34,598 nucleotides of DNA, taken from Thermoanaerobaculia bacterium (GTDB taxonomy: Bacteria > Acidobacteriota > Thermoanaerobaculia > Thermoanaerobaculales > Sulfomarinibacteraceae). The DNA is taken from contig JAMOVQ010000114.1 in assembly GCA_027067575.1 (NCBI GenBank), forward strand, positions 1-34,598, given 5' to 3'. The notes beneath the pieces were generated by a model. The model made no database searches, was not told the origin of the DNA, and saw only the letters and a list, made by a program, of their open reading frames with translations. How positions within the stretch are numbered: the stretch's first letter is position 1; each line of letters starts with the position of its first letter. Both the position numbers and the translations under genes were made by a program. Shown here piece after piece: positions 1 through 24,464 of this stretch.

Positions 1-132
1 CCGTTCCCGCAAGGGCGCGAGGAGGAACTGACCTGGCGGTCGTGACGACGAAGCGACCGCGGCGGGGGCGGTCCCGGGGTGCGAGACTCGCGGCCCCGTT
101 CATTCAAAGTCGATGACCCGAAGCCCTTCAAC

Positions 133-275
133 GAAGCCCAGGCGGCCGGCAGCGACGCCGCAGGCGGCGCCAGCGGATCGCCCGGACGGTCCGGGGGGAG
201 CTCGCTCCCACCGGGGTGCGCGGGCGAGGCGCGCAGCCCGCGCGCAGCGCGGGGGCCGGCCGCCGGTTCGTCCCA
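133..275 (+). repeat. Dispersed intergenic repeat, copy A (hairpin-rich, 10-bp inverted repeat near ends)
   Basis: GAAGCCCAGGCGGCCGGCAGCGACGCCGCAGGCGGCGCCAGCG...GGGGGAGCTCGCTCCCACCGGGGTGCGCGGGCGAGGCGCGCAGCCCGCGCG...GGGGGCCGGCCGCCGGTTC is nearly identical to 7058-7201 and, for its 3' ~130 bp, to 24178-24308. Confidence 0.9.
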
Positions 276-291
276 CGCCCCACCGCCTGCC

Positions 292-320
292 TTGACAGGC
301 CACCCGGGGCCGTTCACAAT
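292..320 (+). promoter_or_regulatory. Putative sigma70-type promoter TTGACA-N17-CACAAT for the 390-1064 gene
   Basis: TTGACA at 292-297, 17-nt spacer, CACAAT at 315-320; downstream AAGGAGG and ATG at 390. Confidence 0.6.
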
Positions 321-6826: not shown

Positions 6827-7057
6827 AGCTTGCAGGGAAACCACAACCCATTCGCGGCGCCCCTGCCCTCCTCGGGGTGCGGGATGGCACCCCCGAAAGG
6901 AGGTGAGCCCCATTTTCCGCCCCAGACCAACCGACACCCTCCTTGGGACGCATGCGGGAATCTGGGTGTCCCCAAACCGCGGAACCCTGGGTGCCCCTTG
7001 ACAGATGCCGCAGCGGCGAGGGGCAAGGAGGAGCTGACCTCCTACGATGCCGCTCCC

Positions 7058-7201
7058 GAAGCCCAGGCGGCCGGCAGCGATGCCGCAGGCGGCGCCAGCG
7101 CGTCGCGCGGGTGGAACGGGGGGAGCTTGCTCCCGCCGGGATGCACGGGCGAGGCGCTCAGTCCGCGCGAAGCGCCGGGGCCGGCCGCCGGTTCACCTCA
7201 C
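7058..7201 (+). repeat. Dispersed intergenic repeat, copy B
   Basis: Nearly identical to 133-275; shares GAAGCCCAGGCGGCCGGCAGCGAYGCCGCAGGCGGCGCCAGCG and GGGGCCGGCCGCCGGTTC. Confidence 0.9.
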
Positions 7202-7349
7202 GGTGAAGCGGTCCCGCCCGGTCGGATAGCGCACCACAGTCCAACGGTGCAACGGTCTGCTCCGGTCTCGCTCCAGGCAACCCCGGAGCGGTGGTGGTAG
7301 GATTCGGACGAATCACACGACGCGATCGTCGAGGTCCGGGGAGGAGACC

Positions 7350-10300
7350 GTGATCCAGCAGCGCTCCGTGCCGTTCGCTCGTATCCTCATCGTCCTGTCG
7401 GCCGTCCTGGCGTTCGCGGCACCGGTGTCCGCGGGCGGGGTTCGGCTGGAGGGCACCGCATGGGCCGAGGTTCCGGTGGACCGGCTGACGGTCCGCGCGT
7501 GGCCGCTGGGCCGGAGCGGATCATGGCCCGCCATGGAGACGGCGCCGCTCGCCGAGACGGTCATAGCGCCAGGCCGCCCCTTCGTTCTCGACCTGCCCCG
7601 GGACGCCCTGCCTGTCCGGGTCGAGATCGACGGGAAGGGGCTGGTGGCCGTGGCGCGCACGGTGGTGTTGGAGGAGGACGCCTCCCTTCCGCCAGCATGG
7701 CTCCGGCGGGGTCACCGGGTCGAGGCCGTGGTGCGCCGCAACGGCAAGCCCGCCGCGGGTGCGGTGGTCCGCGGCACCGTCCGGACCGGCTCCTGGTCGG
7801 TGCGGCCCGAGCGGTGGAGCCCGTCCGTCCCGGTCGCGGTCTGCCCGAAGAACGGGAGGGTCGCGTTCGAGATCCCGCCGAACGGGCCCGCCGTCACCCT
7901 CTCGGTGACGGATCCCGCCGATGGGGGCTGGGCCTCGTTGTCCCGGACGAACGTCTCCCCCGGCGCGGCCTTGACCGTCTCCATCGGGTCCAGGCCGTTG
8001 AAGGTGCTCGTGCGCGACCGCCGGGGGCGTCCCCTCGCCGGCGCCGTGGTGGCGCCAGCCGGCGCGCCGCGCGGCACGGCGGTCCGGACGGACGGGAAGG
8101 GCCGTGCGGCGGTCCAGGTCGGAGACGGGGAATGGCGGCTCGTGGCCCTGGCGGCGGATGCCGCCGGCACGCTCTCCGGCCGGGAGATCCCCGAGAACGG
8201 CGCCGTCGTCGACACGGAGCCGCTCGAGAAGCTGACCGTGCGGTGGGAATCCGGCCTCGGCCCGCTGGCCCTGTCCGGCCCGTGGCTCTCGGGCGCCCTC
8301 GGCCTCGGTCCCCTCCCCGCGCGGGGCGGCTCCGTCCGCCTGCCGTTCCTCTCCAGGGGCCGGATCACCTGGCACGGACCGGGCGTCGCGCCGGGCTCCA
8401 TGAGCGTCTCCGGCGCCAGGGCCCCCGTGACGCTCCACCCTGCCCCGGCCGTCCGCTTCGCGGGCCGGGCCGTCACCGCAGGTGGTGACCCGGCACCCGC
8501 CGGGCTGCCCGTGTGGGTCTCCCTTCCGGCGGAGTACGCCGCCGTCCGGGGCGAGATCCGCGGCAGCGCGTCGTGGATCCCATCCGTCCGTCCGTGGCTG
8601 CCGTGGGGTGTGACGGGCGCCGATGGAACGTTCACGATCGACGGCCTGCCGGCCGGACCGCTCTCCCTGGAGCTCCGCAAGACCGGGTTGCCGCCGGCCC
8701 GTACCCCCCGAACGGACACGAAGCCGGGCCAGACGGTGGAGGCGACCCTCGTGCTGCGTCCGGGCACAACCCTGACCGCGCGGGTCGTGGACCCCGACGG
8801 CGCCCCGATCCCCGGGGTCACGGTGGACGTCTTCCAGAGCCGGGATTCCGGACCCAGGAACGCCGTCGTCATCTCCTTCGGCGGACAGCCCCGGCGCGGC
8901 GATCCCGATGCGACCGGCGTCACGGACGGGGAAGGAGCGGTGACCGTGCGCCAGGTGCCCCGGGGGAAGGCCGTGGCGGCGTTCTTCGCCGGCGGGTACG
9001 TTCCGCGCAGGCTCCCGGACGTCGAGGTGCCTCCTGAGGGCGCGGACCTGGGCGAGGTCGAGCTGACGCCCGGGGTCACGATCCGCGGAACCACAACCGA
9101 TCCGGAGGGCCGGCCCGTCGCCGGCGCCGAGGTCGCGCTGCTCGAGTCGCCCCAGATGCCGTTCTTCAACCCGGTGACGCGGAGCGATGCGGACGGACGG
9201 TTCGAGATCCCGGACGTCGACCCGCACGGCGAACGGTACCTCCAGGCCCGCGCCGAGGGGTACGTCCCGCGGGCGCCGCTCAAGGTGACCCTGCCGCCCG
9301 AGGGAGACGTGGAGCTCCGGATGGACGTGGAGCGGAAGCTCACGGGGCTCGTGGTCTCGGCCGAGGACCACCAGCCGATCCGTGACGCCCGCATCGAGCT
9401 GATGCAGCGCAACACCATGTCCATGGGCGGGGTGCAGGTCGCCGGAATGATCGCAGCCGGCTCGGCCACGACCCTCCCCGACGGAACGTTCGAGATCGGC
9501 GGACTCTCCGAGGGCGGCTACTCCGCCGAGATCTCCGCCAGGGGGTTCCAGAGGACCAGCCGGTCCGTCGCCGTTCCTGCGGAGGGGAACCCGCCGCCGC
9601 TGACCGTGGAGCTCCGGAAGGGGTTCGAGATCCACGGCACCGTCGTGGACGAGAACGGCACACCCGTGGACGGGGTCCGGGTGATGGCCGGCGCCGGCGA
9701 GACGTGGAGCCACGCCACGTCCGGCCCGGGGGGCGCCTTCACCGTGGAGGGGCTGCCCAGGGGCACGGTGGAGGTCCGCGCCGTGGCGCAGGACGGCCGG
9801 AAGGGGAAGACCACGGCCGAGGCGGGCTCGGCGGAGCCCGTGACCGTGACACTGTCCCCGGGCGTCGCGATCCGCGGCACGGTGACCACCACCGGCGGCG
9901 AACCGGTACCCGGCGCCTCGGTGCTCGCCTTCTCACCGCAGGACGGCTCCCAGACCATCGAGGCCACCTCCGACGCGGCGGGATCGTTCGCACTCGAGGG
10001 CGCGCAGCCGGGATCGTGGCTCGTGAGGGCCTCGGCGGACGGGTTCGCCAGCGCCCGGAAGACGGTCACCGTTCCCGATCGGGGCGAACCGGAGCCCGTC
10101 CGCCTCGAGCTCGCTCCCGGCCACACGCTCCACGGCACCGTGCGGGGGCTCTCGGGCGCCGAACTGGAGGGGTGCGGGATCTGGTCCCCGTCCGGGGCCA
10201 CGGCGAAGCCGGACGCCGATGGCCGGTTCACGCTGGAGGGACTGCCGGCCGGGACGGTCGAGATCACCGCAATGGTCATGCCCGGGAACCGTTCACGGAC

Positions 10301-11384
10301 GGTCACCGCCGAGATCCCCGAGGACGCCGATCCGCCCGAGGTCGAGATCGACTTCGGCGGCGGTGCGACGCTCTCCGGGACGGTCACGCGGGGCGGTGCA
10401 CCCGTGCCCGGTCTCACCGTCACGGCTGGCAACGTCACCACGGGATCGAGCAACGCCACGGTGACCGGGGAGGCGGGCGGCTACACCTTCGAGAGCCTCG
10501 ACGCCGGCGAGTACCAGGTGGCCGTCCGGGGCCCCTCGGGCGAGGTCCTCGCCGGGGACCACGTGATCCTCGACGGCGACGGTGTCCTCGACTTCGAGCT
10601 CCCCACCGCGGCGCTCTCCGGGTTCGTCCTCGAGGAGGGGACACGCCGCCCGCTCGGAGGCGCCACCGTCACCGTCTCCGGTTCCGGCCTCCCCCACGTG
10701 GAGCGGACCGTCTCCTGCCGTGAGGACGGGTCCTTCGCAGTCGAGGAGCTCCCCCCGGGCGCGTACACCGTGCGGGCCACGGCCCAGGGCCACACGCCGG
10801 CCCAGCATGCCGTGACCGTCGAGGAGGGGGTTCCGGCCACCGTGACGCTCACTCTGGCGGACGAGTCCGCCCTCAGGCTGCGTCTCTCGGGAGCCGCACC
10901 GGCCCGCGTGTCGGTCATCCCGCTGGCGCAGGGCCAGGTGGGCCCGGCGGTGGACGGCCTCTGCGACCGTTCCGGACTCTGCACCGTCCGCGGCATTCCG
11001 GCCGGAACCCCCACGCTCCTCGTCCGGACCACCGGGGCCGCGGGCCTCGTCCGTGCCACGCTCCCCTCCAGCGATCCCGTACCCGTTGTCCTCCGCCCGA
11101 CCGGGCAGCTGAGGATCAGCGCCCCGCCCGGCGAGGGGGGTGCGGTCTGGAACGTCCGGCTCCGGGACGGTGCCACGGGCCTCGTCGTCCCGCTGTCCGG
11201 ATGGCGGAACCCGGCCCGCGGCGAGTGGGCCCCGGTCCCCGCATCCGGTCTCCAGGCGGACCTCCCGGCCGGTTCCTGCACCATCGAGGCGATCTCGCCA
11301 ACCGGCGCGACCGGGACGCGGACCGTCGAAGTCCCGGCAGGCGGCACGGCCCGCGTCGCGTTCGGCGCCGGAGAGGAGAACTGA
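7350..11384 (+). CDS. Large secreted protein of tandem carboxypeptidase-regulatory-like/Ig-like domains
   Basis: GGAGGAG then GTG start; signal peptide; repeated units such as TIRGTTTDPEGRPVAGAEVALLE, EIHGTVVDENGTPVDGVRV, AIRGTVTTTGGEPVPGASV, each followed by D-G-F-x-(I/L)-x-x-L/V-x-x-G. Confidence 0.85.
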   Translation: MIQQRSVPFARILIVLSAVLAFAAPVSAGGVRLEGTAWAEVPVDRLTVRAWPLGRSGSWPAMETAPLAETVIAPGRPFVLDLPRDALPVRVEIDGKGLVAVARTVVLEEDASLPPAWLRRGHRVEAVVRRNGKPAAGAVVRGTVRTGSWSVRPERWSPSVPVAVCPKNGRVAFEIPPNGPAVTLSVTDPADGGWASLSRTNVSPGAALTVSIGSRPLKVLVRDRRGRPLAGAVVAPAGAPRGTAVRTDGKGRAAVQVGDGEWRLVALAADAAGTLSGREIPENGAVVDTEPLEKLTVRWESGLGPLALSGPWLSGALGLGPLPARGGSVRLPFLSRGRITWHGPGVAPGSMSVSGARAPVTLHPAPAVRFAGRAVTAGGDPAPAGLPVWVSLPAEYAAVRGEIRGSASWIPSVRPWLPWGVTGADGTFTIDGLPAGPLSLELRKTGLPPARTPRTDTKPGQTVEATLVLRPGTTLTARVVDPDGAPIPGVTVDVFQSRDSGPRNAVVISFGGQPRRGDPDATGVTDGEGAVTVRQVPRGKAVAAFFAGGYVPRRLPDVEVPPEGADLGEVELTPGVTIRGTTTDPEGRPVAGAEVALLESPQMPFFNPVTRSDADGRFEIPDVDPHGERYLQARAEGYVPRAPLKVTLPPEGDVELRMDVERKLTGLVVSAEDHQPIRDARIELMQRNTMSMGGVQVAGMIAAGSATTLPDGTFEIGGLSEGGYSAEISARGFQRTSRSVAVPAEGNPPPLTVELRKGFEIHGTVVDENGTPVDGVRVMAGAGETWSHATSGPGGAFTVEGLPRGTVEVRAVAQDGRKGKTTAEAGSAEPVTVTLSPGVAIRGTVTTTGGEPVPGASVLAFSPQDGSQTIEATSDAAGSFALEGAQPGSWLVRASADGFASARKTVTVPDRGEPEPVRLELAPGHTLHGTVRGLSGAELEGCGIWSPSGATAKPDADGRFTLEGLPAGTVEITAMVMPGNRSRTVTAEIPEDADPPEVEIDFGGGATLSGTVTRGGAPVPGLTVTAGNVTTGSSNATVTGEAGGYTFESLDAGEYQVAVRGPSGEVLAGDHVILDGDGVLDFELPTAALSGFVLEEGTRRPLGGATVTVSGSGLPHVERTVSCREDGSFAVEELPPGAYTVRATAQGHTPAQHAVTVEEGVPATVTLTLADESALRLRLSGAAPARVSVIPLAQGQVGPAVDGLCDRSGLCTVRGIPAGTPTLLVRTTGAAGLVRATLPSSDPVPVVLRPTGQLRISAPPGEGGAVWNVRLRDGATGLVVPLSGWRNPARGEWAPVPASGLQADLPAGSCTIEAISPTGATGTRTVEVPAGGTARVAFGAGEEN

Positions 11385-24119: not shown

Positions 24120-24177
24120 GTCCGTGACACCATTGTTCCGTACCTCCCCTGAAGCGTCAAGAATCTCTGCACCCGCA

Positions 24178-24308
24178 AACGCAGCGGCGCCGCAGGCGGC
24201 GCCAGCGCGTCGCACGGGCGACCCGGGGGGAGCTCGCTCTCACCGGGACGCACGGGCGAGGCGCGCAGCCCGCGCGAAGCGGGGGGGCCGGCCGCCGGTT
24301 CGCCCTAC
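24178..24308 (+). repeat. Dispersed intergenic repeat, copy C (5' end degenerate or truncated)
   Basis: GCAGCGGCGCCGCAGGCGGCGCCAGCGCGTCGC...GGGGGGAGCTCGCTCTCACCGGGACGCACGGGCGAGGCGCGCAGCCCGCGCGAAGCGGGGGGGCCGGCCGCCGGTTCG matches copies A and B. Confidence 0.9.
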
Positions 24309-24464
24309 GACCGAGCCGAATGACGAGTGGGGGACGTTGATTCTTCGATGGCACCGGTACGCTCCTGGGAGGTTCGGGGGCATGGGAGGCTCCGCAGGGA
24401 TCGGCCGGACGTCGATGCTCTGGGGCCCGGAGGAGCCTCGGGGCAGCGCAGGGAGATGGTGGCA

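Follow-up and report, generated by a model that had tools for sequence, protein, structure and literature searches.

An intergenic three-domain element, present in many copies in one family of Acidobacteriota, is probably a structured mobile element or RNA of a new kind

What are the long, closely related repeats that lie between the genes of contig JAMOVQ010000114.1 (C114) of a Thermoanaerobaculia bacterium (assembly GCA_027067575.1; 3,082,781 bases, 191 contigs)? The window, i.e., the whole stretch of 34,598 nucleotides analyzed here, contains as its largest (longest) repeat family exactly three copies, at 132-277 (copy A, the reference), 7057-7202 (copy B) and 24164-24309 (copy C), the latter two sharing 87 and 79% identity with copy A across 146 nt. 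All three are on the forward (+) strand, clear of predicted genes, and end 114, 149 and 193 nt upstream of the predicted starts at 390, 7350 and 24501, which agrees with the initial annotation of this DNA. Judged by alignment with copies from elsewhere in the genome, the window repeats are domain III, the last ~140 nt at the 3' end of a larger non-coding element. We consider it highly probable (roughly 0.9), on sequence grounds, that this is a structured, dispersed, intergenic non-coding element of one Acidobacteriota family without a match in Rfam. Most likely it is a non-autonomous mobile element with a selected single-strand structure, its mobility being a matter of inference. The host is an uncultured Acidobacteriota, to judge by one window gene whose top protein relatives come from metagenome-assembled genomes of Holophagae/Thermoanaerobaculales (identity 76-80%).

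The family is far larger than the three copies originally proposed. With copy A as the BLAST query, at least 41 matches were obtained in the host genome, while the terminal 17-mer GGGCCGGCCGCCGGTTC, allowing up to two mismatches, gave 130 matches there versus 14 for its reversed control, i.e., about 115 copies of the terminal motif above background. The setting of the copies was analyzed in 1.55 Mb of the host genome, in which a simple codon model called 1193 genes (86% coding); this sample was picked partly for holding elements, and densities in it are not genome averages. None of 118 element pieces overlapped a called gene, and 125 of 147 neighboring genes were singletons, with no gene family recurring among them. 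The initial view of a non-coding family next to unrelated genes, as opposed to gene duplication, is thereby upheld, in contrast to its size of three.

The complete element, as seen in aligned full copies, is ~1 kb long and comprises tandem 137-bp units, a linker and a ~620-nt body of three hairpin domains; a contiguous example at ~9350-10455 of locus L035 carries 2.7 such units before linker and body. The body stops sharply at GGCCGGCCGCCGGTTC, the 3' end is constant and the 5' extent varies among copies, the array being absent or having up to about seven or eight units and the middle part being missing from some copies. Several of the short copies either carry an internal deletion or consist of the array only. 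On inspection, open frames occur in several frames of the element, as expected for GC-rich DNA. A separate hairpin repeat, GCGGGCTGAAGCCCGCGCTCCATCG, was observed 5' of or within some arrays (L247, L041, L070). Of the 118 pieces, 53 run off the end of the stretch analyzed, and many such ends are contig ends; since the listed copies near contig starts lie on the + strand and those near contig ends on the reverse (-) strand, the assembly tends to break 5' of domain III. The element is thus a likely cause of the fragmentation of the host assembly. A bigger insert hidden at the contig breaks was considered and rejected, as complete contiguous copies (L035, L045, L049) show none.

Seen against this architecture, the window copies have bounds other than the compact ones drawn at first (133-275, 7058-7201 and 24178-24308): copy A runs off the contig start, copy B reaches back to about 7006 across an internal deletion, and copy C is domain III only. 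The features are as follows.

1..276, + strand: copy A, most of domain II, spacer and domain III, with the 5' side lost at the contig start (BLAST extent; alignment to full copies)
1..97, + strand: domain II remnant of copy A, the apical part and 3' strand of a long hairpin, matching the 123-nt hairpin R1 (bounds by eye)
141..264, + strand: domain III of copy A, with the closing inverted repeat GGCGGCCGGC / GCCGGCCGCC (pairs counted over 50 copies)
292..320, + strand: candidate sigma70-like promoter TTGACA-17-CACAAT, just 3' of copy A, outside the element and before the gene at 390 (by eye)
7006..7201, + strand: copy B, a domain II remnant (~7006-7057) fused via an internal deletion to domain III (7066-7189), as compared with the L034 subfamily
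24178..24308, + strand: copy C, domain III alone, without its 5' closing arm

The body folds into long hairpins, domains I and II, in which compensatory changes, both inside and between genera, maintain the pairing and the apical internal loops are conserved. Domain II, with fold z-scores of -6.5 to -10.5, displayed double compensatory changes in 34 of 39 predicted pairs among 22 copies from eight genomes and seven genera; in its 37-pair structure 93% of cells are paired, with a covariation score of 0.591 versus 0.197 ± 0.015 for shuffled and at most 0.183 for slid controls. This 22-copy alignment was fitted to the covariance model and hence leans toward it; in an unfitted MAFFT alignment of copies from the host and the genome G010 only, double changes were found in 13 of 37 pairs, with a score of 0.296 versus 0.123 ± 0.013. 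Domain I showed double changes in 23 of 38 pairs and folds into a similar shape in the host, G010 and a further genome, G004. In other genera the stem sequences of both domains differ while the pairing is the same. The apical part of domain II is kept as its stems vary (roughly GCGAGGAG, a short stem, CUGAYC-NNNN-GRUC, the other side of that stem and GACGAAGC), and the core of domain I reads CAG[stem]UUGGCCCGA...GGGUAAG[stem]CGAG, its five-base stem occurring as several matched sequences within the host genome alone. The evidence for domain III is weaker: three compensated pairs, all essentially in one subfamily, and the inverted repeats that close its counterparts in G010 and G007 differ (by eye). 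As to the strand, all 22 domain II copies were more stable on the + strand, by 10-31 kcal/mol, at similar numbers of Watson-Crick pairs on the two strands. G.U prevailed over A.C at 57:13 in domain II and 83:9 in domain I; these counts use structures predicted on the + strand, so that the two-strand folding of the 22 copies is the fairer test. The search of Rfam gave no match for the window at the gathering threshold and, with E allowed up to 10 for the full element and the copies of G010, no hit approaching a gathering score, in keeping with the first impression that this is not a named element. A known RNA was rejected on this ground, and a tRNA-like fold because ARAGORN found none in the element.

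The distribution of the element is narrow. A 143-nt BLAST query found no match in the 21 other genomes of the family, whereas the whole element recovered at least four ~540-nt homologues with the parts in the same order in G010, which represents another genus. One solo array unit was present in G007. A covariance model built on the 123-nt hairpin of domain II (R1), run on 151 genomes of the class (22 in the family, 129 outside), matched 8 of the 22 family genomes, spanning seven genera (host at least 23 matches, G010 19, G013 three, G007 and G006 two each, G004, G015 and G005 one each), and none of the 129 others. The refined domain II model, searched over 396 genomes of the phylum, added two genomes, both from a single distant genus (E 1.4e-8 at best); these matches, in family f31, lie at G362:C7:184-533 (two in tandem) and G404:C77:21689-21809. 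An exact 28-nt element pattern had no match in 85,462 species genomes, a set which may omit the host genome. The single copy of G004 has the three-domain fold and lies between purH-like and sucD-like genes (names from translations); in both G010 and G004 the body is present without the array. Domain II copies of G015 and G013 (L310 and L321) were seen ~260-280 nt 3' of serine acetyltransferase-like genes, in two genera and in opposite orientations.

The array part of the element may link it to a known kind of transposition. Each 137-bp unit carries the palindrome GGGACTGTCCCC or a close variant, which resembles the core of repetitive extragenic palindromes (REPs); GGGACTGTCCCC occurs 106 times in the host genome, and 72 of 84 exact cores in the 1.55-Mb sample lie inside elements, with one of the 84 in a called gene. 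The core is thus a short palindromic unit, extragenic and of high copy number, as in REPs, their hairpin-forming doublets (REPINs) and bacterial interspersed mosaic elements (BIMEs). The host has genes of Y1 transposases, the class of REP-associated tyrosine transposases (RAYTs), one of them scoring below the cut-off against NCBIfam REP_Tyr_transpos, and two (L151, L153) have GGGACAGTCCCC or GGGACTGTCCCC on their flanks. The same palindrome therefore flanks RAYT genes in the case of the array core, and not in that of domains I-III; nor does the whole element consist of REPs with short spacers between them, for the core is missing from the ~620-nt body, which has a structure of its own across genera. 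The REP-like GGGACA[CG]TGTTT was found 16 times in the 21 kb that lie no more than 150 bp from elements versus 15 times in the 143 kb of spacers elsewhere. In G088, of the same class (L287-L292, L295), the same core forms REPIN-like inverted pairs (GGGGACWGTCCCC) with a distance of 54 nt, or 77 nt in a single instance, and one of these pairs lies upstream of a Y1 transposase gene. In G007 one element copy starts 34 nt past an open reading frame (ORF) that matches the C-terminal portion of a Y1 transposase at 95% identity. As this is a single case, a general rule of RAYT gene adjacency was rejected. Several Y1/RAYT gene copies of the host are near-identical at their 5' ends, with left ends GGGACACTGTTTTTC. 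One such gene has at least seven copies (L249 on C154, L252 on C140, and the contig ends L062, L085, L099, L108 and L120), 91-98% identical over the 125-200 nt common at their 5' ends, each beginning GGGACACTGTTTTTCTCTTGACA; it, too, probably breaks the assembly.

We read the element as mobile because its copies, sharply bounded on the 3' side, are scattered over unrelated loci and overlap no called genes, because its homologues occur in seven genera of the family and in none of the other class genomes, and because domains I and II covary and prefer the top strand. The REP-like array core, its position beside RAYT genes, the inverted pairs of G088 and the adjacent ORF of G007 are the reasons to think of RAYT-type transposition, to which we assign even odds. 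RAYTs have been proposed to mobilize REPs and to build modular arrays (PMC2817692). In the case of this element, the top strand would be presented single-stranded and its hairpins recognized in trans by an HUH transposase (Y1, RAYT-type); copies would persist in spacers, arrays could be lengthened at the REP-like cores by slippage or by rolling-circle copying, and deletion between GC-rich repeats would leave defective copies and stubs such as copies B and C. Several observations weigh against this interpretation. Neither an empty site nor a target duplication nor movement was demonstrated, the relatives tried lacking common flanking genes (for copy C, none of 80 relatives found via the neighboring PALP gene had the flanking glycosyltransferase beside PALP). 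The evidence for the RAYT link consists of the array core plus a single neighboring gene, and no other examined RAYT locus, four in the host and twenty elsewhere, has domain II nearby. A body of 600 nt is far larger than known REP units. Finally, a transcribed RNA would equally yield compensatory changes; as such changes have also been reported for the stems of REPs (PMC2817692), covariation cannot separate RNA from single-stranded DNA.

Four known systems come closest to the element. It shares with REP, REPIN and BIME sequences (PMC2817692, PMC3116915) high-copy intergenic palindromes, mosaic and partly tandem arrays, a core beside RAYT genes and compensated stems, but REPs measure 20-40 bp (PMC2817692, PMC3116915), whereas here a ~620-nt three-domain body, kept across genera, follows the array and occurs array-free in G010 and G004. 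The array part thus resembles known REP arrays and the 620-nt body is the new part; no description of it was found in the open-access papers searched. BrickBuilt of Porphyromonas gingivalis, a minisatellite inside a miniature inverted-repeat transposable element (MITE), is, in the portion of its description available to us, similar in tandem units, leader and tail, intergenic multicopy occurrence and narrow host range; its units are 23 nt versus 137 nt here, and that portion describes no cross-genus covarying tail structure of the kind seen in our element (PMC4596501). As to the terminal inverted repeats of MITEs, domain III of our element is closed by an inverted repeat, but on inspection the 5' and 3' ends of the whole element are not inverted copies of each other. 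OLE, ROOL and GOLLD RNAs (PMC12286853) are likewise hundreds of nucleotides long, with many covarying helices and poorly understood function, and covarying secondary structure of that kind is present here. Unlike them, the element matches none of their Rfam models and reaches up to ~115 intergenic copies per genome. HEARO/OMEGA RNAs are multicopy in some genomes. Those of IS605-like elements (PMC9755519) are also structured non-coding sequences tied to single-strand transposons, in contrast to which our element has no Rfam match; no nuclease gene was seen beside the examined copies, with no search aimed at IscB or TnpB.

Among the alternatives, the one to be taken most seriously, though we hold it only tentatively, is that the body encodes a large structured non-coding RNA that works as RNA; its gene would go back to the ancestor of the family, the single-copy genomes would keep the original, and the host and G010 would have amplified it. 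The strong covariation of domains I and II, whose apical loops are conserved, the top-strand preference including G.U pairs, and the single copies in G004, G005 and G015, that of G004 folding into three domains, would suit such a gene; the presence of about 115 copies, often partial, in a single genome, the lack of a conserved neighbor gene and the family genomes without detectable copies would not. A combined form is possible to a similarly limited degree: a large three-domain structured RNA of an undescribed class, the gene of which would at the same time be a mobile element of high copy number in Acidobacteriota and which possibly aids its own spread. By comparison, it is improbable that the pairing is a by-product of GC-rich palindromes in ordinary REP/BIME clutter with an unconstrained 620-nt body. 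The array is indeed BIME-like and domain III covaries weakly, but the cross-genus covariation of domains I and II is far above shuffled and slid controls, and within the class model matches are confined to the family.

The positions of the window copies, 114-193 nt before starts, and the preference for divergent spacers bring to mind cis-regulatory elements (leaders, terminators or operators) of the downstream genes. Where both neighbors are known, spacers with elements are divergent in 19 cases, tandem in 17 and convergent in three, compared with 60, 111 and 37 of element-free spacers longer than 150 bp. In 41 of 64 cases the element's 3' end is directed toward a same-strand start and in 23 toward the 3' end of an opposite gene, and this mild excess is explained by the preference for divergent spacers; in tandem spacers alone the figures are 7 and 10. 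The orientation rule, by which the element would lie upstream of a same-strand gene, was therefore rejected, and the fixed position claimed initially does not hold genome-wide. With copy A, moreover, located upstream of a likely promoter and outside the leader, and the neighbor genes unrelated, we regard regulation in cis as an unlikely function. The gene downstream of copy B (7350-11384) encodes a 1344-aa protein with nine carboxypeptidase-regulatory-like stretches (PF13620). A retroelement copied through RNA by a reverse transcriptase, with 5' truncation like that of short interspersed nuclear elements (SINEs), would account for the constant 3' end and variable 5' extent. It was rejected and appears the least likely explanation, as PF00078 (RVT_1) had no matches in the host genome, rated 100% complete, and as several short copies are internal deletions or array-only forms, copy B having proved to be such a deletion and not a truncation.

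Taken together, the element, for which we still favor the reading of a non-autonomous mobile element, combines strong covariation across seven genera with the absence of any matching RNA family, and its copy number ranges from one to ~115 among related genomes. Were it to act as RNA, it would represent a new class of large RNA together with a natural copy-number experiment; were it to act as single-stranded DNA, the known cargo of REP-type transposition would be enlarged more than tenfold.
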